Source of the DNA: a virus | Virus record (IMG/VR): IMGVR_UViG_3300033145_001015 | Location: 1 to 52,412 of that record | Direction: 5' to 3' (one strand) | DNA length: 52,412 nucleotides | In this document: positions 16,561 to 32,254 of the stretch, piece by piece | Layout of the letters: every line of letters starts with the position of its first letter | How positions within the stretch are numbered: the first letter of the stretch is position 1 | Notes under the pieces: model-generated | What the model saw: only the letters and a program-made list of their open reading frames with translations | Told to the model about the DNA's origin: nothing | Database searches by the model: none | Program-made: the position numbers and the translations under genes

Positions 16561-18918
16561 CTAGATAATTCTCCGCCTTCCGGCGGGTTTGCAGGATGTC
16601 GTGATCGACTCGACTGCCCACTTGCGCCCCGCAGTTCCAGTTATCTTTAACGACATAGCTTGTCCCCGACACGCTGGATGAACGGTGGCGTTAAGCTCAT
16701 CGCTCCATGTCCCCGTGTCGGAGGCATCGTCATTTATCGCGCCTTCTGGCGTTAAGGAACCGACCGCAGCCCACGTCACGTCGCCACTGCCATCCGCCAT
16801 TACGGCGTCAATTGAGTAAAGCTTCCCGACCAACGAATCCCTAGCAAGTGGTATGGGTCCAATGACAGCGTATGTCTCGTAAGTTGTGCCGCAATCATTT
16901 TCGGCAAGCTCGCTGAATCTCCGCAACTTACCATCGCGGCATCCGAGAATAACGCTAGAATCCTCTATTACCCTAGACTGGTATGCGCATGTTGCAGTTG
17001 GCTCGTGATCCTCAATCATAGAAACAGGCCAGAATGTCTTTCTTGACCAATCGAACCACCAGTGAGTGCGCGAATTAAACATCACTGATGTCAAGAAAAT
17101 ATGGACCCCGCCGTCGTGCAGATCATATTCCAGTGACACAGTGAGCATATCTGGATTTAAGTTTTGGAATTCCCGCGGCAAAACCTCACGTGAAAGCGGA
17201 ATAGGCGAAGCGTCCGCGCCTGTTGGCAGGGCGTATAAGCCATCAAAAGACAGGAAAATAAGCTCACCGGCTGGTCCAAGGCACCATGCAGTCGGCCCCA
17301 CGATCCCGACAGTATGGCTTACTGAATTTAAACTGCCACCATAAGCGGGATCACCAAGTAATCGCCATAATGAATTTCGACATGCTATAACTAAATAATC
17401 ATCGTTGTGTGGTACAAGCGCAGTAATTGGATCACCAGGCACACCAGCGTCGCTTGCTGTACCGGCTACAGCTCGCTGGCTATCCTCTTGTGAGTAATCC
17501 CAATCAAGCGGATCGCTCTGGCGAGCCATATACCATACATGAGGAGCTATCTCAGCACCGGCCAATACAATGCGGTCCAGGTGGCGACAGATTAAAGGGC
17601 AACCCGTCGGAACTTGTCCGGCTGTAGCGGTCATTTGCACCAACGTACCGGCAGACGGGTCAAACACTTTAGGAGCGCGCTCAATCCGAAATGAGCATGT
17701 TCCGTTGCCCGGCGACGAGGCGAGCGTTAGCGCGCCCGCCGCCAAGCTGGAAATCTTATACGTCCCAGCGACAGTAGCACCACCAACATTGGACACAACG
17801 ACCACATCATTATAAGGCGATATATTCTGCTCTGCCCAATTTGGATTAGCGGTAGCAGTGAGTTGATCGCCAGTTACTATACCATCAGTCTGCGTGATGC
17901 GTAAATCGCCGTAGTCGGCAATGTATAAATCCTGGCCGCTCTGGACTGCCTGTAATGTCACATCATCCCGTACCGTGAGATCAGTGGTCGCTACAGTCAT
18001 GCGACCGCTAGTATCCTCTGTGTATATGTCACCGTCCGCAGACGCCACCAGCATCGAGCGCAAAGACGGTGTTTCGATAGTCGAAAAATACTGAACTCGA
18101 AACGTATTGCACAAGCATAGCCCGCCATCATTTGTGCATTCTAAACCGAAACCAACGCGCCTATTTCCTGAGTCGTGAGTATCAACGACCTGCTCGATTA
18201 ACTCAACACCATTCCAAAATACTTTTACTGTGTCACCAGTCACCACTACCGACAGCCATGCTGCCTGCGGTTCATTAAATGTCATATCGGTGACTAAACC
18301 ATAATCAGTTTTGCTCCCTGAGTCAATGGAAGAAAGTTGCATTGAATACGAATTTGTCGAACCAGCCATAGTAAGCTCAACCATGACCCCGGCACCCGCC
18401 TCCCCGATCTCCGTGAAGTTGGGGCTGCCATCATCCAATCGCAGGTATATCCTATACTTACCATGCCACGATCCACCCCACGGTACCAAAAATGCCTCAA
18501 CTGTATACGACTCAGAAATGTCAATATCAAGAACCCTGAGAACCGCTTCCCCTTCAGCGGTATTTGTATCAACAGCAGCCACGGAAGTTGGCAAAATAAG
18601 AGGAAGGGTATCAGCCCAAAACGGCAGACTCCATGAGACATCAAGCGTAGTACCAGCAAAGTTATCCGACCAAGAGGTGAAAGCGTCGCCCATTGCAAGA
18701 GTCATCGGTGATAGCATTCGCACTTCGCCACCGAGATCGTCAACGTGAGATAATGTTAATCCCGGCCTGCTACCACCCCTCTCCCTTCCTTCGAGCGTGG
18801 CGACTGCCCGCACATTCATGCAGTCTGGCGTAGTGAAGGGAGCTTGCCGCTGATAGCTAGACTTACGGTATAAGCCGCCAAGCGGAAATTCAAGAGCAAT
18901 TTGACGTGCTTTCGTCAT
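16561..18918 (-). CDS. Tail tubular/nozzle-type protein with inserted lectin-like domain
   Basis: A 785-residue protein starting FPLGGLYRKSSYQRQAPFTT and CMNVRA. Later segments are typical of podovirus nozzle proteins (T7 gp12-like): HVWYMARQSDPLDWDYSQ, ALVPHNDDYLVIACRNSLWRLLG and WCLGPAGELIFLSFDGLYALP. An extra beta-sandwich resembling a LamG/concanavalin fold appears to sit at about residues 85-275. It is the first gene after the promoter nested in a terminator at 18932-18984, so it opens the tail module. Confidence 0.7.
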   Translation of the reverse strand: MTKARQIALEFPLGGLYRKSSYQRQAPFTTPDCMNVRAVATLEGRERGGSRPGLTLSHVDDLGGEVRMLSPMTLAMGDAFTSWSDNFAGTTLDVSWSLPFWADTLPLILPTSVAAVDTNTAEGEAVLRVLDIDISESYTVEAFLVPWGGSWHGKYRIYLRLDDGSPNFTEIGEAGAGVMVELTMAGSTNSYSMQLSSIDSGSKTDYGLVTDMTFNEPQAAWLSVVVTGDTVKVFWNGVELIEQVVDTHDSGNRRVGFGLECTNDGGLCLCNTFRVQYFSTIETPSLRSMLVASADGDIYTEDTSGRMTVATTDLTVRDDVTLQAVQSGQDLYIADYGDLRITQTDGIVTGDQLTATANPNWAEQNISPYNDVVVVSNVGGATVAGTYKISSLAAGALTLASSPGNGTCSFRIERAPKVFDPSAGTLVQMTATAGQVPTGCPLICRHLDRIVLAGAEIAPHVWYMARQSDPLDWDYSQEDSQRAVAGTASDAGVPGDPITALVPHNDDYLVIACRNSLWRLLGDPAYGGSLNSVSHTVGIVGPTAWCLGPAGELIFLSFDGLYALPTGADASPIPLSREVLPREFQNLNPDMLTVSLEYDLHDGGVHIFLTSVMFNSRTHWWFDWSRKTFWPVSMIEDHEPTATCAYQSRVIEDSSVILGCRDGKLRRFSELAENDCGTTYETYAVIGPIPLARDSLVGKLYSIDAVMADGSGDVTWAAVGSLTPEGAINDDASDTGTWSDELNATVHPACRGQAMSLKITGTAGRKWAVESITTSCKPAGRRRII

Positions 18919-18931
18919 TCAAATATCTCGA

Positions 18932-18973
18932 TAAAAAAGGCTTGCGACAGTATACATTATACCGTCGCAAGCC
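18932..18973 (-). terminator. Intrinsic terminator upstream of the tail module
   Basis: On the - strand the stem GGCTTGCGAC/GTCGCAAGCC (10 perfect pairs, 18939-18973) continues inward as GTATA/TATAC after one mismatch. It is followed by TTTTTTATC. It would end transcripts arriving from the capsid side. A promoter lies inside the same stem. Confidence 0.9.
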
Positions 18974-18984
18974 CTGAATGTCAA
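18956..18984 (-). promoter_or_regulatory. Leftward promoter nested in the terminator stem
   Basis: On the - strand, TTGACA (18984-18979) is followed by 17 bases and TATAAT (18961-18956). The -10 box overlaps the loop side of the terminator hairpin. A transcript starting near 18949 contains only the descending arm, so it cannot form the terminator. Confidence 0.85.
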
Positions 18985-18992
18985 CCTCTCAA

Positions 18993-20633
18993 TTACGCGG
19001 TGTCATCAAGGCTATTGCAGGCCAAGTAAACAATACGCACCCGAACCTTACCGCCAGCCACAAACTTCTCAGACACAGCAGCACCAGCATTATCGGCAGC
19101 CTTCACTGTCACCGTTTCCGCCCCGCTAAGCACGGCGTAAGCAGGTAGTGTGTTAGTCTTGGTATTTTGGACCAAATCAGCACTCAAACCATACTTGTCG
19201 GGATCACCAGTAACACCAATACCAACCTTAGTTAGGCCATCATCACCAGTAGCATCGCCCTCCACGAGCGTATCGTTGTTAGCCTGCACCGAAAGAATAA
19301 CCGCGCCATCAGGCACAGTTTCCGTCAGGTCGCACTCCACGGCATTTGTGAGAGTCACAACTTCATCAATTACCTTAACCTCAAAACCCTCGGTAGCCGA
19401 GGCCCCGAAACGCTGAGCCACGGCAGCAGCGGCAGCACCGGCGCTAAGAGAGACCGCACCGCTTGCCCCGACATTGCGGAATTCACTTACGTCCTTGCTG
19501 GCATCAACAACCACCGCCTTGCTGGCCTCTACGGTTCCGGCGGCAGTTATGTCACAAGCATTCAATTCCGCTGGCGTAGCAGTTACCTCAACCTCAAGGC
19601 CAGTTGCACCAACGTGCAATTCAGTAGCTTTCACAACGCCGATATTGACATTTGCGTCTGCCACAACTGCCTTGCTGGCAACCTGAGTGCCAGCTACCGC
19701 ATCATCTAGCACGTCGGCTTCCGCTAGCGTAATCTGAGCAGTAGACTGCATGAGATACGACGTAGCCCCGGGATCAGGCAAGTTAATAGTTCGTGCCGCT
19801 GCCATTTCAGCTACCACGATAGAGACGGTAGTATCACCCGCTTGATCCGCACAAGTCAAGGAAACTTTTCCCTTTGACTCGGTAGATGGAAAAATATCGA
19901 CACTACCAACACTGCCCGAAGCACCAGCATCCAAGTTTTGACAATTAAGATTACGAAAGTCCCCGGCATCCTTATCTGAACTCACCACAACAGCCTTGGA
20001 TGCTACGACCGTTCCAGCCACGGCGTCATCCAGAACGTCGGCCTCAGCTAACGTAATCTGAGCGGTGGACTGCATCAGATACGAAGTCGCCCCCGGGTCA
20101 GGAAGGTGAACTGCCCTTGCCGCGGCCATCTCATCAACCACAAGCGAGACAGTCGTATCACCCGCTTGGTCAGCAACAGAGACGGCCAACTTACCCTTAG
20201 ACGCCGTAGACGGAAACACGTCAAGCACACCAGCCGCGCCAGACGAACCAACATCAAAGCTGCCGACTGAACTTACAACAGATACCTTGCCGTCCGCAGC
20301 CATAGTTGCGTCTTGTGACATGGCGACTTGCTCGAAGCTGTCGCCATCACCGACCAGGATTTCACCTTCAGTATAATCGACAGGCCCAACGTCAGCGCAA
20401 TCCGCGACAGAAAGAGACTCGGGACTTTCGAGTGCATCAAAATTGCAGGAGCTTACTGAACCTACATTTTGGTACACCGCAGTACCAGCGATACCATCAG
20501 TATGTTGAAACAGGCAACCCGTCTGATAACCGTCTGCCCCGTTAGTTGGAACAGTATCACCGGATGCAAAAAGCAAACCGCGATCCAGCTCGGGCTTCTG
20601 CATTTTGATTAAACTACAAATACGGTCGATCAT
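18993..20633 (-). CDS. Repeat-containing structural protein (head or tail fibre-like)
   Basis: A 546-residue protein with two long, nearly identical units at residues about 128-222 and 236-329. Both contain DxFPST.SKGK, ADQAGDTTVS, EMAAAR, LPDPGATSYLMQ and ITLAEADVLDDAVAGT. A third partial unit (PAELNACDITAAGTVEASKAVV) follows, then a beta-rich C-terminus. Such repeats occur in phage decoration and fibre proteins. It lies between two terminators, so its level is set separately from its neighbours. Confidence 0.7.
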   Translation of the reverse strand: MIDRICSLIKMQKPELDRGLLFASGDTVPTNGADGYQTGCLFQHTDGIAGTAVYQNVGSVSSCNFDALESPESLSVADCADVGPVDYTEGEILVGDGDSFEQVAMSQDATMAADGKVSVVSSVGSFDVGSSGAAGVLDVFPSTASKGKLAVSVADQAGDTTVSLVVDEMAAARAVHLPDPGATSYLMQSTAQITLAEADVLDDAVAGTVVASKAVVVSSDKDAGDFRNLNCQNLDAGASGSVGSVDIFPSTESKGKVSLTCADQAGDTTVSIVVAEMAAARTINLPDPGATSYLMQSTAQITLAEADVLDDAVAGTQVASKAVVADANVNIGVVKATELHVGATGLEVEVTATPAELNACDITAAGTVEASKAVVVDASKDVSEFRNVGASGAVSLSAGAAAAAVAQRFGASATEGFEVKVIDEVVTLTNAVECDLTETVPDGAVILSVQANNDTLVEGDATGDDGLTKVGIGVTGDPDKYGLSADLVQNTKTNTLPAYAVLSGAETVTVKAADNAGAAVSEKFVAGGKVRVRIVYLACNSLDDTA

Positions 20634-20658: not shown

Positions 20659-20684
20659 AAAAAAATTCCGGTACTTTTACCCGG
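20659..20684 (-). terminator. Intrinsic terminator after the 94-residue structural gene
   Basis: On the - strand CCGGGTA and TACCGG pair around AAAG (20668-20684, one bulge) and are followed by AATTTTTTT. It lies 15 bases after the stop at 20699. No promoter of the GGTATAAT type follows, so the next gene may depend on read-through. Confidence 0.65.
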
Positions 20685-20698
20685 CAGTTAAAAACTCA

Positions 20699-20988: not shown

Positions 20989-21276
20989 TCAGTCCTTCTT
21001 CTTCTTGTCGCTTAAGGCTCTAATTAAATTCCAATACCCCGACCCAGCAGGCGCAGCCCCTTCCATGATTCCTTTCCTGCGACCGGCGGCTTTTTTTGTC
21101 CTGATTTGTGACGGCGTTGACTTTGCAATTGGCTTCTTCCCTGCTCTCACTTTATTGAAATGTGCGTCAACTCGTGCCCGCTCCGCCTTTCGCGCACCCC
21201 TCTTAGCCCCGGCAGCCAAGGAACCAGGCTTCTTCATTTCCTGCATGAGAGCAGCAATGTGAGTAATAGCGCTCAT
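20989..21276 (-). CDS. Small basic hypothetical protein
   Basis: Ninety-five residues, about one quarter Lys or Arg (KRGARKAERARVDAHFNKVRAGKK), ending KKKKD. It may bind DNA or a capsid surface. Its ATG overlaps the endonuclease stop as ATGA. No family is recognised. Confidence 0.55.
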   Translation of the reverse strand: MSAITHIAALMQEMKKPGSLAAGAKRGARKAERARVDAHFNKVRAGKKPIAKSTPSQIRTKKAAGRRKGIMEGAAPAGSGYWNLIRALSDKKKKD

Positions 21277-21956
21277 AGGACCACTACCTTCGATTGTTCT
21301 AAATAATTTGCGAGACCCCGGACACGCTGAACATCATCTTTCAGCAAACCAAGTGATATATTACATTGGTGGCATAGCCAACCACGGAATTTTCCTGTTT
21401 CATGGTCATGTTCCAAGGCGAGGCGTTTATGGCATTCAGACTCAGGTATTTGGCACCCGGCGTTTTGGCATCTTCCAGTAAACGCAGCTCTGATTTCTTC
21501 CACAGTCGCCGAGCATGGTACATGAGAATTTCTGCGCGCCATCGCATCAGACTGCCTAAGAGCACATAAAAAACGATCCTTCTTCACGTATGATTTCCTG
21601 GCAATCGCCCTCTTTTGTTTCTTGTGCCTGTGATTCCATGCACGCTGTTGCTCCGCAAGACAAGCATAACACCGCGCACTTCTTTTCTTACTTCGTATCG
21701 GAAATTCAGAGAGATTCTTTTCCATACCACATTTTGTGCATTTTCGCGTCAAGCCCTCGTATTTTTGCTCTCGTTCGGCTTTTTCCTTTTGTCTTTTTTT
21801 ATAAAGATCACTTTTGCGATATTGTATTTTGCAAACAGCATTAGTGCAATCCCTACATTTATGACGATAAAAAACAACGCCACCACCTTCACGATGATGA
21901 ACCGTAAAATTGCATAGCTGCTTTTCGATACCGCACACTTTGCAAATTCGCGTCAT
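21273..21956 (-). CDS. Endonuclease VII-type HNH nuclease (copy 1)
   Basis: A 227-residue protein. Its start at 21956 lies one base after the adaptor stop. Two N-terminal CxxC zinc modules (CKVCGIEKQLCNF; CTKCGMEKNLSEF) precede the C-terminal endonuclease VII core LALEHDHETGKFRGWLCHQCN. The core cuts branched or double-stranded DNA. It interrupts the adaptor/structural series and is related to the genes at 27959-28501 and 41199-41588. It may be a free-standing homing endonuclease or a junction resolvase. Confidence 0.85.
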   Translation of the reverse strand: MTRICKVCGIEKQLCNFTVHHREGGGVVFYRHKCRDCTNAVCKIQYRKSDLYKKRQKEKAEREQKYEGLTRKCTKCGMEKNLSEFPIRSKKRSARCYACLAEQQRAWNHRHKKQKRAIARKSYVKKDRFLCALRQSDAMARRNSHVPCSATVEEIRAAFTGRCQNAGCQIPESECHKRLALEHDHETGKFRGWLCHQCNISLGLLKDDVQRVRGLANYLEQSKVVVL

Positions 21957-21957
21957 C

Positions 21958-22743
21958 TCAAATCGGCTCCCCGTTATAGAGAATGGGGTACGTCCCCCCC
22001 GTATGGCCCCGCCTAAAATCAACTAACTCCGGGTCTTGATTGCCCATCTGGCCATAACACTTCCCGCTATTTTTCCTATCACGAGCTGCTGCGTCAACAA
22101 GAAGCGCCTGGTATATTTGTGTATGAATTCCAATCTCATCATTGACTTGACTCTCGGCAACAGCCAGACATGATTCGATATAAAGCTCAGCAAACTTCAT
22201 TCCGCCAAGCGGATACGGGTATGCACTGCTCAACGCGCCGCTAAACGCCTCATACTCATACGCCATAGTCCAGCTGTCATCTGGCTCGGGTTGCAAGAGA
22301 ACTTCCTGTCGCTGCCCACTGGAGCCATCTGAACTCTTGAAACGAGTGGCGAAGTACACCGGAATGCCAGTTTGGTCAGTCATGGCCCGCAGTTCAAGAA
22401 TCCTGCTAACCGCAACCTCAACAACCGAACTCTTATATTCCTCTGCCGGGAAATGAATTTTCCCAATCAATCGCCCAAAATCATCTGGCAAATCGTAGTC
22501 CGATATGCCAGATACAACCGCCAGTGTGGTATGCGGCCTGAGCCACGACCATTCGTAAGCAAGAGTGCTGGGATCAATTGCTGGCGGGTAATACACCCTT
22601 CGCACGCCACTCTGAACTAGCCTATTGAGTATCGCCTTTTTGGCAGCCGAATAATCGTCATACGCCTTGTAGCCGTAACCGAGGAACTCCCCGGTCCGGC
22701 CAATCAGATCAGCAAAGCCTACTGACAATCCAGATTCAGCCAA
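21958..22743 (-). CDS. Head-tail adaptor-type protein
   Basis: A 261-residue mostly helical protein (DDYSAAKKAILNRLVQSGVRRV; FAELYIESCLAVAESQVND) with YPPAIDP and W-rich segments. Size and position after the capsid genes suit the gp11- or gp4-like ring that joins portal to tail nozzle in podoviruses. The assignment rests on order and pattern. Confidence 0.55.
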   Translation of the reverse strand: MAESGLSVGFADLIGRTGEFLGYGYKAYDDYSAAKKAILNRLVQSGVRRVYYPPAIDPSTLAYEWSWLRPHTTLAVVSGISDYDLPDDFGRLIGKIHFPAEEYKSSVVEVAVSRILELRAMTDQTGIPVYFATRFKSSDGSSGQRQEVLLQPEPDDSWTMAYEYEAFSGALSSAYPYPLGGMKFAELYIESCLAVAESQVNDEIGIHTQIYQALLVDAAARDRKNSGKCYGQMGNQDPELVDFRRGHTGGTYPILYNGEPI

Positions 22744-23702: not shown

Positions 23703-24746
23703 TTACGCAACCTTGGAAAACACGGCCTGGCGACGCAGGTCAGTACAAATCATCTCGAACGAACAATCGAGATCAATACGACGAACCTTGCTCTTATTCG
23801 GAACCATATACGGTTTCGAGAGTTGATTCTCCCAGCCAGCCAACACGCCGACGGCCAGCTTCTTCCAGTCAAGCATGTAGACCGGATCGGTATCATCTGC
23901 ATCGAGCTTCGGAACGTAAGTAAGTGGCGTACCCTTAAAGACAGTCTTACCGTCCTTGCTGGCAACATCATTCCCTAGATTCATATTCTGGGTTTCCAGA
24001 ATCTCCTCCATTAAACTAACGGTATTGTAGTTCGCGTAAATACCATTACCCATCCCACCCACATCAGGTTGGGAGTGGGACACGGGACTTCGGAACCTCG
24101 TTTTCATGGACGCTTCGCGCATCTTACGAATCAAATCCTCCTTGGAAACCGCAGCGTAATCAGACGCCCAATTTACCCAACGAGCATTCGCGGAAGTAAG
24201 AATATGCGCACGGCCAATAGCCTCATAGCCACTCGGATCGACGCCCTTGAAGCCATTCTCGCCCGAAGCGCATTTTTGCACCCAGAACGAAACTCCGTGC
24301 GGAGTTTTGTTATCGGTAGCTGAAGGACTCCCCCACAGAAACTCCTCCATCTTCTCGTAAAACGAAACCATCATAGCGACGTAACGAGAATAAACCAAAT
24401 CAACGATTGCCTTACCACCACGTTGAAAAGCCTTTTCGCGCTGATCGTAGATATAATGCGCGTTGACGTGTCGGGGCCGCATGTAGCCCTCAACCAACGT
24501 ATCAGTTACGCTTGAACCATCGGTCTCGAAAAGGCTGACTGCACGGGCACTGTGGTTGTGGTCAATCTGTGCCTGGAATTGCCAGTCGTCGCCACCGTCA
24601 AAGACCTTCCTGCGACCCTTCCAAAGCTCCCTTACGGCAACGTGATCCGAAAGATCAGTCTGCAAATCCAGGAACGCCCCCTTTTTAACTAGATGCTCTT
24701 GCGTTGCAATGACAGCATCGTCAATATCAGCAAATTGAATTGCCAT
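23703..24746 (-). CDS. Major capsid protein
   Basis: A 347-residue protein following the scaffold gene. The FYEKMEEFLWG, PHGVSFWVQ and NYNTVSLMEEIL segments, and the late TPLTYVPKLD and VYMLDWKKLAVGV strands, fit an HK97-fold capsid subunit with N-arm, E-loop, P- and A-domains. It forms the icosahedral shell. Assigned from order (portal, scaffold, capsid), length and composition. Confidence 0.75.
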   Translation of the reverse strand: MAIQFADIDDAVIATQEHLVKKGAFLDLQTDLSDHVAVRELWKGRRKVFDGGDDWQFQAQIDHNHSARAVSLFETDGSSVTDTLVEGYMRPRHVNAHYIYDQREKAFQRGGKAIVDLVYSRYVAMMVSFYEKMEEFLWGSPSATDNKTPHGVSFWVQKCASGENGFKGVDPSGYEAIGRAHILTSANARWVNWASDYAAVSKEDLIRKMREASMKTRFRSPVSHSQPDVGGMGNGIYANYNTVSLMEEILETQNMNLGNDVASKDGKTVFKGTPLTYVPKLDADDTDPVYMLDWKKLAVGVLAGWENQLSKPYMVPNKSKVRRIDLDCSFEMICTDLRRQAVFSKVA

Positions 24747-26196: not shown

Positions 26197-26225
26197 ATTA
26201 TACCATAAATAACAAAGGAAGTCAA
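26197..26225 (-). promoter_or_regulatory. Leftward promoter for the scaffold/capsid module
   Basis: On the - strand, TTGACT, 17 bases, then TATAAT preceded by GG. It lies in the 50-base gap after the portal gene. Confidence 0.85.
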
Positions 26226-26228
26226 GAA

Positions 26229-27959
26229 CTATTCGCCACTATCCGCAAGAAGCTCTTGCATCATATCCGCCGTACCCGTCGGCTCAGGTTGAGGAATCCC
26301 CCCAGCTTCGTCTGCACCAGAAGCAGGAGCACCAGTCGGAGCGACACCAGCGGGGGCACCTTGCTGGCCAGTATAATCGTCCATGAAGGTGACATACCGT
26401 CCAGCCTCAGGCATATCTGAATACTTCACCACGTCGTCTAAGATCGCCTCAACATCAATTGAACCGCTCTGCTGCTGGATGAATGGGGATAATGGCGTAA
26501 TGAATCGCTCAACTATCAACCCCAACTTCTGCAACTTCGTGGCGGGAGAATCATCCTGGCATGAATACACATCAATTTCAAGATCATAGAGATCGAATTC
26601 CCCCTGTTTTGATTCTTGATTCCATTTTACCGGAACTGAGACGCCCATTCCGGGGACTTTCTTTTCGAGATCACGCTGTTTCAGTGGGTCGCGCCACTCA
26701 TACCACGCCAATGCGTAAAAGACCTCTTTGATTGCATCAATTGTTTTGTCGGCCATGTCGCGCAATTGCGCACTCGCTGCCTCCCCTAACAACTTATCCT
26801 GGCCGACAGTCTGTGTCATTGGAGCAAGGCCACCGAGGCTATCGAGATTTCCTGCAAAATATGACGATAATTCGCGCGTTTGCAGGAAAAATGCGAGCGT
26901 CTTTGAATCAACACCACCCGCAGTAAGCGGCTCCGGCTTAGCGCCGGAATATGCAATCCCGTCGCCATCCTTCGCATTCTTAAACGCAATAACACCAGCA
27001 TCATCTCCGCCGGGAAACCCTTGGACAGTCTTTTGTGCATCGGCCTGATTGCCGAGTTTGCGGAACAAACCATTAGCAAGTTCATTGAGATCATACCAAA
27101 TTGACACCGGCGGCAGCGGAAGTAAATTACCGGGAACATCTGAATACCCAAGCCAAACATAAGGCCCGTTTTTCGGCCCTTCCCACTCAACTACATTCAG
27201 CAATTTCTTGCTTGTAACCCCATAAGTAACGAGCAGTTTCTCCCCCGGCAGCCACACATCACGCATGTGAATACGATCCTTGAAAACTTCCGGCGTACTT
27301 GCGTTTGCGATGCTCTCTGCTCGTATCTCGCCATCCTGGCCAAGCATTGTGTATTCATCTGGTTTCAATTTATCACGAGAGGATTTTTTCACCCAATCCA
27401 TTTCCATTACATCATCGTAATCCATCCAATAATCGTTCCCTTCGTATTGAATGGTGTTACGACTCCCGGTGGACATATCGCAAAAGTAATCATCGAGCGT
27501 TACGTTATCGACAAACATTTCGCCATAATTATGCCCCAAAATTTGTTCGTTGTCGCTAAGGCCAATTTTCAAAATTCCAACCGAAAATAAAGCCTCCATC
27601 ACAAAGATTCTCAATGTCCGGCTAAGCCCTATTTCATTTGGAATCTGATTCAATGCAAGCTCAAAATTAGCCGCGGTTGAGCGCAACTCATCCCGCTTGG
27701 TCGTGATTAACACACGGGGAGTATGCGCCGCAAGTTGCCTAACATAAATCTCAACTGCCAATTTCGAGATATTAACTGGCATAATTTTTTCGCTACCACT
27801 CTCCATATAACGCGAGCCGCAAAATTGCTTAATCGCCTCGACGCGCTTGCGCCGCGAAAACTCAAATTGTTTCTGACTCCAATCTATACTTTTTTGCAAT
27901 TTACTAAATTGCTTTTCGCTTAACGGATTGACACCACCACCATAAAGTTGATCTGCCAT
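26229..27959 (-). CDS. Portal protein
   Basis: A 576-residue protein. The ATG at 27959 overlaps the endonuclease stop as TAATG. It has the typical portal course: a helical N-terminus (FSRRKRVEAIKQF), VRQLAAHTPRVLITTKR, a central region with WYDLNELANGLFRKLGNQ and long stem helices (TIDAIKEVFYALAWYEWRDPLKQRDLEKK). The C-terminus is disordered and Pro/Gly/Ala-rich. It forms the dodecameric ring through which DNA is packaged. Confidence 0.8.
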   Translation of the reverse strand: MADQLYGGGVNPLSEKQFSKLQKSIDWSQKQFEFSRRKRVEAIKQFCGSRYMESGSEKIMPVNISKLAVEIYVRQLAAHTPRVLITTKRDELRSTAANFELALNQIPNEIGLSRTLRIFVMEALFSVGILKIGLSDNEQILGHNYGEMFVDNVTLDDYFCDMSTGSRNTIQYEGNDYWMDYDDVMEMDWVKKSSRDKLKPDEYTMLGQDGEIRAESIANASTPEVFKDRIHMRDVWLPGEKLLVTYGVTSKKLLNVVEWEGPKNGPYVWLGYSDVPGNLLPLPPVSIWYDLNELANGLFRKLGNQADAQKTVQGFPGGDDAGVIAFKNAKDGDGIAYSGAKPEPLTAGGVDSKTLAFFLQTRELSSYFAGNLDSLGGLAPMTQTVGQDKLLGEAASAQLRDMADKTIDAIKEVFYALAWYEWRDPLKQRDLEKKVPGMGVSVPVKWNQESKQGEFDLYDLEIDVYSCQDDSPATKLQKLGLIVERFITPLSPFIQQQSGSIDVEAILDDVVKYSDMPEAGRYVTFMDDYTGQQGAPAGVAPTGAPASGADEAGGIPQPEPTGTADMMQELLADSGE

Positions 27960-28501
27960 TATTTCACCCACTCCGCTTGTTTGTAATCCAGGAGTTGCTG
28001 AATTTTTAATTCGCTATCTTCCAGCAAGCCAAGTGCCTGGTTACACTGACCGCAAAGGAAACCGCGAAATTCCCCAGTTTCATGGTTATGATCCGCGTGC
28101 AATTTACGTTTGCCCTCGGGCCTTCCGCATGACTTACAAAAACCAGTATACGATTCAATTAACTGTTGCTTAGTTGCATTACATGGAGCATGTCCATTCC
28201 TTCGAGCTTCGTATTTCATACTCGAAAGAACAGAGGCAAATCTATCTCGTTTATATTGCTCCCTCCCTAAATCTCGCTTCCTTACTAGATTCCTTTTTCT
28301 CCACGCTGAATTCGAGGATAATTCACGAGATTTTGATACTGCCAGATAGTACCCCCTACGATAAACACTTTGGCATTCCTTGCAACGAGCCACACGGGAG
28401 GCAGTTCCGTCTTTATTTTTCTTTCCGGCGAAATAGAATAAATTAATATCCTTTTCTTTGCCGCACTTATTGCAAATTTTAGTTTTTGTTATGCTATCCA
28501 T
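27959..28501 (-). CDS. Endonuclease VII-type HNH nuclease (copy 2)
   Basis: A 180-residue protein: an N-terminal CNKCGKEKDINLFYF zinc module with CKECQ, then the nuclease core CNATKQQLIESYTGFCKSCG and LHADHNHETGEFRGFLCGQCN. It overlaps both neighbours (13 bases with the terminase, TAATG with the portal). It sits in the most conserved packaging junction, a common site for free-standing homing endonucleases. Confidence 0.88.
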   Translation of the reverse strand: MDSITKTKICNKCGKEKDINLFYFAGKKNKDGTASRVARCKECQSVYRRGYYLAVSKSRELSSNSAWRKRNLVRKRDLGREQYKRDRFASVLSSMKYEARRNGHAPCNATKQQLIESYTGFCKSCGRPEGKRKLHADHNHETGEFRGFLCGQCNQALGLLEDSELKIQQLLDYKQAEWVK

Positions 28502-30351
28502 TCAGAACTCAATTCTCTATTAGATGATCGCTTGTCATTTTCCTTTTGTATCATTCTCCACTTCAAACAACCCGGCGGAATTTCCGGCTTGTCGCGCACT
28601 GATTTTTGAATACGCTCCGACATCCCCTTAGACGCCAAGGCATCTGCCATACAGCGATCCCCGTGGTTACTCTTTGCTCCTGATGGATCATTTTTACTCG
28701 CAGAACGTGAATGTGCTATACTTCCATCTGGTGTAAAAATATACTCAAGTGTCTCCTCTACGGCAACCTTTGAGCGATTTACGCATTTCCCGCCTTCAAG
28801 CATTGCCCGGTAATGCCCCATCAACACCAACTTTATCTCGCGGTTCATGGCAACCCCGGGCATATCAGATACACGCCCGGAAATTGAAGCATCATTTTTC
28901 CTGTAGTAAATGTTTGAGTATTTCAATTCTCGTACACGCGATCCGAATTGGCCCCCGGGACCACCCGACTCCCAAATAAGAAATGACCCCCCTAGCCATT
29001 TAGCTAACGCCACAACTAAAATGGCAAACTGCTCGGGGCGCATATTTGGATTAGCATATTCAAGTATTTTTTCTTGAGTTAAAGCATTCCAACCAGAGGC
29101 GCATGAATTCGATGCACCACTTCCCGCGGATATATCGTTTCCGATAACTGTTCGACAATCAATTGATGGCTTGCCATTCCTATCAAGCAAAAACCATAAT
29201 TTCAAATTTCCATTTTCGTCCTCACGAAAACGCAACGGATCACCAGTTGTTTCGTCGTATTCCAGTTCGCCAATTAGGAATGGCGGACGTGCATGTTTCC
29301 TTATCGCCTCGTTGACAGCATCAACATTGAAATACAAATACCCAGACCCGAGATAATCAATATCAACTTCTTGCGCAATTTCCTGAGCACTTCCAGCGCG
29401 ATTGCATTGCTCCGCATACCAAGGAGAACGAACTTTATCATCGGGAAGCGGCACGCCCCGACGAAGAATAGCGGAATCAAATTTCTGCATCTCCTCTTCG
29501 GGATTTTCTATTGTCGCCCAATAAACTTCATCTATCGGAGTAAAAATACCATCTTTTCTGGAATACAAGCCGATTGCTTTGATAGGGTGAACTGACCAAT
29601 GAAGGCGAAGTTTTTTAATATCGGTTTGCCGAATACTATAAAATGCATTGTTCACGCCCTTCGGAGTCGAGTTAAATAGGCGGCACGGGGTTGCAGGCAT
29701 AGTAGCTTCGAGCACCTGATTGCCGAATTTACAATCTGCAAACTCATCAAGTAATATCGCGGATCGCCTATCACCACGAGCAAAACTTTCAGTTGTCGCT
29801 TCTCCATCCATCACTGAATCCCTTTCGGGATTTTCTATATGCGATTTGGTTCTGTGAACACCTTTATTGAAACCCTTCGGAAGAAGCCATCTTGGCAAAC
29901 CGTCGATCATGTAATCGAGTCTCTGAAATATAGCTTTCGGATTACCGGACTTGTCAACGTATTCATCGGTTCGCGAACCAAGCAGGAAATCCCTTCCGCC
30001 ACGAAACATCCAGCACCAGAAAATTGAAGCCACCGTTATCCAAGATGCACCCATATCACGACTTTTCTCTATAAGCAAATCGTGACTATTGATCGCACGT
30101 AGTATTTCGACTACTGCCTCTTCCTGAAATGGATACAATATAAATGGCAGCTTCGAGAATGGCTCGCGTCGAGTATCACGTGTGTACACAAACCCATTGA
30201 TGAAAAATAGCGGATCACGGGAGCAGGCATCAATAATGACATCAGCATACGCTGGATTTTCAATGACACGACGAAACACAGAAGCACGCCAACGAAGATT
30301 GGCGCGCACTTCTTTAGGAACCCTATTATTAAAGGGACAGGAAATCCTCAT
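28489..30351 (-). CDS. Terminase large subunit
   Basis: A 620-residue protein starting by ATGA overlap. The ATPase has a Walker A-like KSRDMGASW (about 96-104), Walker B AILLDEFAD (about 198-206) and a coupling motif NSTPKG. The nuclease domain has acidic residues in TVIGNDISAG and near the end in GDRCMADALASKG, as in RNase H-fold terminase nucleases. It packages DNA and cuts concatemers. The family strategy (headful or cos) cannot be decided from the sequence. Confidence 0.92.
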   Translation of the reverse strand: MRISCPFNNRVPKEVRANLRWRASVFRRVIENPAYADVIIDACSRDPLFFINGFVYTRDTRREPFSKLPFILYPFQEEAVVEILRAINSHDLLIEKSRDMGASWITVASIFWCWMFRGGRDFLLGSRTDEYVDKSGNPKAIFQRLDYMIDGLPRWLLPKGFNKGVHRTKSHIENPERDSVMDGEATTESFARGDRRSAILLDEFADCKFGNQVLEATMPATPCRLFNSTPKGVNNAFYSIRQTDIKKLRLHWSVHPIKAIGLYSRKDGIFTPIDEVYWATIENPEEEMQKFDSAILRRGVPLPDDKVRSPWYAEQCNRAGSAQEIAQEVDIDYLGSGYLYFNVDAVNEAIRKHARPPFLIGELEYDETTGDPLRFREDENGNLKLWFLLDRNGKPSIDCRTVIGNDISAGSGASNSCASGWNALTQEKILEYANPNMRPEQFAILVVALAKWLGGSFLIWESGGPGGQFGSRVRELKYSNIYYRKNDASISGRVSDMPGVAMNREIKLVLMGHYRAMLEGGKCVNRSKVAVEETLEYIFTPDGSIAHSRSASKNDPSGAKSNHGDRCMADALASKGMSERIQKSVRDKPEIPPGCLKWRMIQKENDKRSSNRELSSEWIA

Positions 30352-30641
30352 GCCGCGGCTTCCATGCACTTGTCATTACAGAAAATCAACACTTTATCGG
30401 TTGGCCTGCTATTACGATGGTCGCCTGGCACGAGAGCACTGAGACCCTCTGCTCGCGCTCTAAGAGCAGACCAATTGTTTCTTCCGTAAGTATGCCTAAA
30501 CGGTTGATTTGTTTCCGGGTTATCAATACCCTCGCGAACAATAGGGAATAACTTACCACAATAATCGCAACGAGCCACTATTTCAATTGACCGGCTTTTC
30601 TTTTTCTTCGGAGCACGTTTTGTATATCTTTGTTTTGCCAT
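30348..30641 (-). CDS. Small zinc-binding protein before the large terminase
   Basis: Ninety-seven residues with a basic N-terminus (KRAPKKKKSRS), CDYCGKLFP and CNDKC near the end, a split four-Cys zinc site. A GAGGAGG site lies six bases before the ATG. It is coupled by ATGA to the large terminase. It could help packaging or be a small regulator. Confidence 0.6.
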   Translation of the reverse strand: MAKQRYTKRAPKKKKSRSIEIVARCDYCGKLFPIVREGIDNPETNQPFRHTYGRNNWSALRARAEGLSALVPGDHRNSRPTDKVLIFCNDKCMEAAA

Positions 30642-31772: not shown

Positions 31773-32030
31773 CTATCCTGGCATTTGCTCGTGGTGCTTG
31801 CACGTCTTTATCATGCGCTCACGAAATTCCAGCGCCCTGTAAGCAGTTTGCGACCGTATTTCAGTAGTTAAGCCGCGGTATGACTTTGCCCCGGTACATT
31901 GACCGGACGCAATAAGCTCATCCCATGTGGCAGTACCACGTTGCACTCGCTTTCCGAGGCGATGGTAACATGTCTTGCATAGCCCCCTGGCAACAGTTTT
32001 CCTGTGGCAACCTTTGGTTATGCAAATCAT
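31773..32030 (-). CDS. Small four-Cys zinc-binding protein (tandem paralogue 2)
   Basis: An 85-residue protein starting MICITKGCHRKTVARGLCKTCY, a C-x4-C-x8-C-x2-C module. RLGKRVQRGTATWDELIASG follows, which aligns with KRVKQKRVTWKELIEVG of the next gene upstream. A basic helix follows. The shared module followed by an amphipathic helix suggests a nucleic-acid-binding regulator. The start overlaps the upstream stop. Confidence 0.65.
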   Translation of the reverse strand: MICITKGCHRKTVARGLCKTCYHRLGKRVQRGTATWDELIASGQCTGAKSYRGLTTEIRSQTAYRALEFRERMIKTCKHHEQMPG

Positions 32031-32254
32031 TATGCCATCTCCTTATTTTCTGAATTTGGAAATGCCTCCTTGAGAGCTGTTGCAAATACTCCACCCTGGC
32101 AAGAGTGCGTTGCTTCTTTGGCAAGCCCTACTTCAATAAGCTCTTTCCATGTTACCCTTTTCTGCTTAACTCTCTTATTAGCAAGTTGATAACAATTCGT
32201 ACACATCCCACGACACATACCTTCACGTTCACAACCAGGAATCAAACACTTCAT
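32030..32254 (-). CDS. Small four-Cys zinc-binding protein (tandem paralogue 1)
   Basis: A 74-residue protein starting MKCLIPGCEREGMCRGMCTNCY, with the same C-x4-C-x8-C-x2-C module as its downstream neighbour. It is the first leftward gene beside the putative origin. It has an AGGAGAAAG site and its own consensus promoter at 32295-32323. An early regulator or origin-binding role is possible. Confidence 0.65.
   Translation of the reverse strand: MKCLIPGCEREGMCRGMCTNCYQLANKRVKQKRVTWKELIEVGLAKEATHSCQGGVFATALKEAFPNSENKEMA

Follow-up and report, generated by a model that had tools for sequence, protein, structure and literature searches.

A probable composite promoter-terminator between late genes of a podovirus-like phage, and the recurrence of its nested form in other phages

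A short intergenic element on the minus strand of an uncultured virus record, analysed here over its whole length of 52,412 bp (hereafter the window), is very probably a composite promoter-terminator serving as punctuation among the late genes. Its order on that strand is TAA-TTGAGAGG-TTGACA-TTCAGGGCTTGCGACGG-TATAAT-GTATACTGTCGCAAGCC-TTTTTT-ATCGAGATATTTGA-ATG, and stop codon, terminator, promoter and start codon are thereby packed into about 75 bases between a fibre-like and a tail-nozzle-like gene (Table 1).

Table 1. Positions of the element, of its surroundings in the window and of nested elements elsewhere.
Feature	Position	Strand	Remark
-35 hexamer TTGACA	18979..18984	-	8 nt past the stop codon of the upstream gene
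-10 hexamer TATAAT	18956..18961	-	preceded by GG, like other late-strand promoters
Terminator stem-loop	18937..18975	-	ascending arm in spacer, loop over -10, descending arm in initially transcribed region
T6 tract	18933..18938	-	predicted 3' end of incoming transcripts
Predicted new start, G18948 or A18951	18948..18951	-	inside descending arm; inferred from spacing to -10
546-aa gene, fibre- or adhesin-like	18993..20633	-	N-terminal ~70 aa conserved, remainder variable
785-aa gene, podovirus tail nozzle/hub-like	16561..18918	-	low-confidence model, fold matches
Major-head-protein-like gene	23703-24746	-	
Terminase	28489-30369	-	
TTGACT-N17-TATAAT	26197..26225	-	likely start of the head-gene unit, whose end would be the element
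GGTATAAT copies	32302, 31746, 26204, 18963	-	TTGAC-type -35 box at 17 nt
GGTATAAT copy	6245	-	weaker -35 box
GGTATAAT copy	32354	-	sixth copy
RB49 nested element	NC_005066 3201-3154	-	absent from the promoter features of its record
Staphylococcus phage K, nested promoter/hairpin/T-run	NC_005880 28095-28037	-	
DnaJ-linked nested elements	~60 bases upstream of DnaJ-like gene		phage contigs L439-L518

The two hexamers match the sigma-70 consensus at 12 of 12 positions, a consensus which is assumed and may not be that of the host, and their spacer of 17 nt lies within the 16-18 nt of sigma-70-type promoters. The window holds only two promoters of this perfection, where a dinucleotide shuffle is expected to yield 0.01 with a spacer of 17 or 0.03 with a spacer of 16-18. 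The overlapping hairpin comprises 18 contiguous pairs, G-U pairs included, around a 3-nt loop and is followed directly by T6, which gives it the GC-containing stem-loop and U-run of an intrinsic terminator. Its folding energy is -28.5 kcal/mol, where shuffled sequences average -8.35 (z -7.58) and none of 200 shuffles equalled it, and it is the strongest combination of hairpin and T-tract found when both strands of the window were scanned. TATAAT overlaps the apical pairs and the loop, as is seen in GGTATA-ATG-TATAC. The minus-strand TTGACA-N17-TATAAT promoter, the strong terminator predicted to overlap it and the self-complementary GTATA/TATAC with the -10 box at the loop had all been described in an earlier note on this DNA, and are borne out at the same coordinates. 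The element is present as one copy, and neither the terminator scan nor the half-site scan of the window recovered a second full one. An exact search for TTGACA-N17-TATAATGTATACTG returned four sites, none with the terminator of the element; Rfam and tRNA scans gave no matches, and the surrounding DNA shows no similarity to known phages.

The promoter at 18984 appears from its sequence to be part of a group of promoters on the late strand, of which it is the sole member fused to a terminator. The late (minus) strand has the motif GGTATAAT at six places and the plus strand at none, and these candidate late promoters look like plain host promoters. Among the promoters in the window that score at least 10/12, the one at 18984 alone has an adjoining terminator.

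In the proposed mechanism, a host polymerase that has transcribed the head/fibre unit, with the promoter at 26225 as its probable origin, copies both arms of the stem. The incoming RNA would fold into the 18-bp hairpin and stop in the U-run near 18933. A fresh polymerase recruited by TTGACA/TATAAT would begin RNA synthesis inside the descending arm (about 18948-18951), and its RNA would carry the U-run without a hairpin partner and continue into the tail-nozzle gene. Since only the incoming RNA carries both arms, incoming transcripts should stop while native ones continue; and both signals would fit into about 52 bp because the 17-nt spacer, hardly read by sigma-70, can serve as the ascending arm. 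When the native RNA was folded with +1 set seven bases after the -10 box, leaving 11 nt ahead of the U-run, it was predicted to fold to 0.0 kcal/mol, in line with the earlier claim that transcripts born here lack the hairpin; at the other nested sites described below at most -0.7 kcal/mol was predicted to be retained. From these features we infer termination as well as initiation, their start and end positions, transcription by a host polymerase of the sigma-70 type and an effect on the head-to-tail ratio. The U6, at about +11 to +16 of the native transcript, could hinder promoter escape. The earlier note had tail-gene expression fixed independently of capsid level; such independence of the two units is not guaranteed, as a terminator placed downstream of the promoter gives it no shield from passing polymerase, and read-through, occlusion of the promoter by passing polymerase, or reinitiation could couple the head and tail units. 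The term "switch", which the earlier note had used, is not retained, as neither a regulator nor a second state is evident.

One variant of the composite reading keeps the same element and changes the polymerase traffic: the polymerase terminated at 18933 would stay on the DNA and reinitiate at the promoter lying just behind it, coupling the nozzle unit to the head unit. After intrinsic termination in vitro, E. coli polymerase for the most part remains on the template, diffuses and reinitiates at promoters nearby, more so with sigma (PMC6978380), and in the window no more than about 50 bp separate the promoter from the stop that follows it. However, according to the same source reinitiation has so far not been sighted in vivo, and the sequence reads the same for this traffic as for independent initiation; on balance we regard it as rather unlikely. 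That nested promoter-terminators form a general, repeatedly evolved phage device which hands a terminated polymerase to the promoter just crossed is a wider proposal that we consider quite unlikely. If true, one 50-bp element would reset the transcript and yet keep the polymerase.

The gene setting agrees in part with the earlier description of transcripts arriving from the capsid genes. The block upstream is co-oriented as described, but the gene immediately upstream is the 546-aa fibre-like gene, and the end of the major-head-protein-like gene lies about 4.7 kb farther upstream. The terminator sits directly at the 3' end of the 546-aa gene. The pattern of this gene, with 70 fixed N-terminal residues and a variable rest, is as in swapped fibre or receptor-binding modules; a search of viral contigs for its relatives confirmed none. 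A second terminator suspected before it, at about 20660-20690, was rejected on a folding z of -0.23. For the 785-aa gene downstream, viral contigs provide 22 relatives, most of them sharing 50-60% identity and three 37-42%, and a tblastn search against known phages gave no matches. Its structure model is poor (mean pLDDT 50), and the best fold matches of this model are the podovirus tail nozzle/hub complexes of SU10, Pa223, VP1 and P22; weak PHROG tail-protein matches occur in 2 of 11 relatives. A small hairpin at its start codon (TGACG-AAAGCA-CGTCA, 18902-18917, minus strand) may be due to chance. Elsewhere on the minus strand, two related genes with endonuclease VII domains (21273-22022 and 27959-28501) stand amid the structural genes and are possibly homing-type insertions, while two small neighbours (31773-32030 and 32030-32254) match the same place in the relatives G008 and G019, which suggests a tandem duplication.

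In the relatives of the window the terminator is the part that can be followed. In G011, G007 and G006 a strong terminator precedes the start codon of the nozzle gene at a distance of no more than about 65 bases, and a hairpin before the nozzle gene is visible by eye in L004/L005, so that a terminator emerges as a repeated feature of the boundary between head and tail genes in this group. In many relatives, the nozzle gene follows without any intergenic gap. As the relatives with the terminator show no consensus promoter recognisable before the nozzle gene, conservation of the promoter was not found in the window's own lineage. This would suit a real head/tail terminator with a promoter match that is either incidental or of negligible strength, given that the position of the terminator is kept without an evident promoter. 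T7-type phages likewise part head from tail-tube and nozzle genes by a strong intrinsic terminator, in which, to our knowledge, no promoter is nested. In the T7-like phage LUZ100 a strong terminator follows directly downstream of the MCP gene (PMC10134795), whereas in the window the fibre-like gene and others lie between the MCP gene and the terminator. Against a terminator acting on its own, a 12/12 promoter at 17-nt spacing is very unlikely to arise by chance, the GG before its -10 box is common to other late-strand promoters, and the promoter scan of the window offers no better candidate close before the nozzle gene. We therefore hold this explanation to be very unlikely and retain the composite element as the preferred reading.

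In order to assess how widely the nested arrangement occurs, viral contigs were scanned with the pattern TTGACA-N17-TATAAT-N(8-26)-T6, which yielded 81 sites at 80 loci among the matches listed. A hairpin lies across the -10 box in 11 of these 81 listed matches, against 0.35 expected when spacer and gap are shuffled, and starts inside or shortly after the -10 box in another arrangement, termed adjacent, in 21 of the 81 listed matches (0.13 expected by shuffling). With A6 replacing T6, the nested form fell to 1 of 82 sites and the adjacent form to 0 of 82 (Fisher p 0.002 and 9e-8, respectively, values which are indicative only because related records in the survey, namely L064/L068/L089, L054/L055/L093/L117 and L082/L110/L120, lower the count of independent cases). 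As the A6 control is close to zero, the hairpins track the U-run, a coupling expected of terminators but not required of operators. The T6 scan of bacterial and archaeal genomes recovered one nested and two adjacent cases in 80 sites, which suggests, as far as such patterns can tell, that phages often carry nested elements and bacterial genomes seldom do. At four of the adjacent elements (L062, L079, L080 and L099), judging from the ORF ends, the TGA stop of the upstream gene apparently lies within the -35 tTGAca.

The genes at the nested cases include a DNA polymerase of the phrog_17 kind, a DnaB-like helicase, a RecD/Dda-like helicase and an ATP-dependent protease, a mixed content which argues against a single lineage. 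Known phages also carry the form: a nested promoter, hairpin and T-run is found in Staphylococcus phage K, and RB49 and Phi1 carry TTGACATACAAGGGAGATTCTCTATAATGGGAGTCTCCCTTTTCTTTT, nested with the -10 box in the loop. The predicted nested form is thus one that recurs in several unrelated phage groups.

The dependence on the T-run also bears on the possibility that the inverted repeat is bound by a repressor dimer sitting on the promoter, with a T-run that is incidental. An 18-bp dyad over the -10 box does occupy the usual place of an operator, but the preference of such hairpins for T6 over A6 speaks against this role, and no convincing second half-site is present in the window, where four extra matches at 2-3 mismatches compare to 1.1 expected. 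Further evidence against it comes from a family of nested elements linked to DnaJ-like genes, whose arms vary while their pairing holds, unlike a fixed protein site. Altogether an operator seems highly improbable.

This family was reached through three nested survey sites that stand upstream of DnaJ-like genes. Relatives of these genes provided 55 distinct upstream regions, 47 distinct elements of the right promoter form and 46 aligned elements. TTGACA is found at -35 and TATAAT at -10, each in 42 of 45 distinct sequences, whereas changes in one arm are matched in the other (GGCTCC/GGAGCC, GGTCTCC/GAGACC, GGTCCAAT/ATTGGACC, TGCTCC/GGAGCA and AGCTCC/GGAGCT). Native hairpins average -19.4 compared to -4.6 when shuffled, and when the arms of different loci are combined, the mean loss reaches about 9 kcal/mol, growing with the difference between the arms. 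The near-invariant hexamers together with the covarying arms indicate that both the hexamers and the stem pairing are maintained in this family. The DnaJ-linked elements resemble that of the window in the succession of TTGACA, an arm in the spacer, TATAAT at the loop, the second arm and the U-run, but differ in their unrelated sequence and gene context and in their AT-richer stems; their covariation bears on the architecture as a class and not directly on the element in the window.

Among bacterial systems, the E. coli ampC attenuator/frd terminator is one hairpin common to two units, and at nlpD1-penA of Burkholderia pseudomallei the terminator is hindered by a promoter lying near it (PMC6045580). 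By analogy with ampC/frd, where promoter and terminator likewise adjoin, the hairpin in the window might attenuate transcripts of its own promoter under regulation. The ampC promoter, however, lies upstream, so that its transcripts cross the hairpin, whereas the predicted start in the window falls inside the descending arm and the native RNA, holding less than the whole hairpin, would be unable to form it; such attenuation is therefore extremely improbable. The penA promoter differs in having arisen by mutation. The hairpin promoters of phage N4 are short, of 5-7 bp, and accompany a gene for a virion RNA polymerase. They were discarded as a model, since the stem in the window measures 18 bp and the largest protein encoded there (1447 aa) has no polymerase match.

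The composite element, as favoured above, comes closest to the promoter-early stem-loops (PeSLs) of T4-like phages, as far as the titles of Arbiol 2010 and Comeau 2014, cited in PMC4503421, indicate. Like these, it joins a compact sigma-70-type promoter and a terminator stem-loop into one composite unit, an intergenic cassette between genes of the same strand. PeSLs reportedly occur in several copies per genome, as early cassettes that sit in the variable regions of T4-like phages and are associated with gene shuffling, and RB49 and Phi1 are said to be the phage pair in which they were first studied. The element in the window, in contrast, is a single copy, with no similar copies to recombine with, among late structural genes of a podovirus-like phage. 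The 52-kb record, with its podovirus-type nozzle and Prim-Pol primase, is not a T4-like genome, and its TerL is only about 22% identical to that of a T4-like cyanophage. Lacking both the T4-like genome and the several copies, the element was not filed as a PeSL by descent. The earlier proposal of one element that stops one unit and starts another hence stands as to its anatomy, with both signals well above chance expectation, folding in agreement and recurrence in unrelated phages, but not as a new idea, since the T4-like cassettes precede it.

Composite phage promoter-terminators are thus already known, and the window adds a case in the late genes of a non-T4, podovirus-like phage. Taking the sequence evidence together, the feature is real and most probably a bifunctional stop/start element. 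The main addition is the survey, in which the nested form is found in several phage groups, tied to U-runs and covarying in the one family examined deeply. It also provides a searchable rule, namely an ascending arm within the promoter spacer and a -10 box at the loop. For phage annotation this matters in that separate promoter and terminator predictors would each report half of the element.
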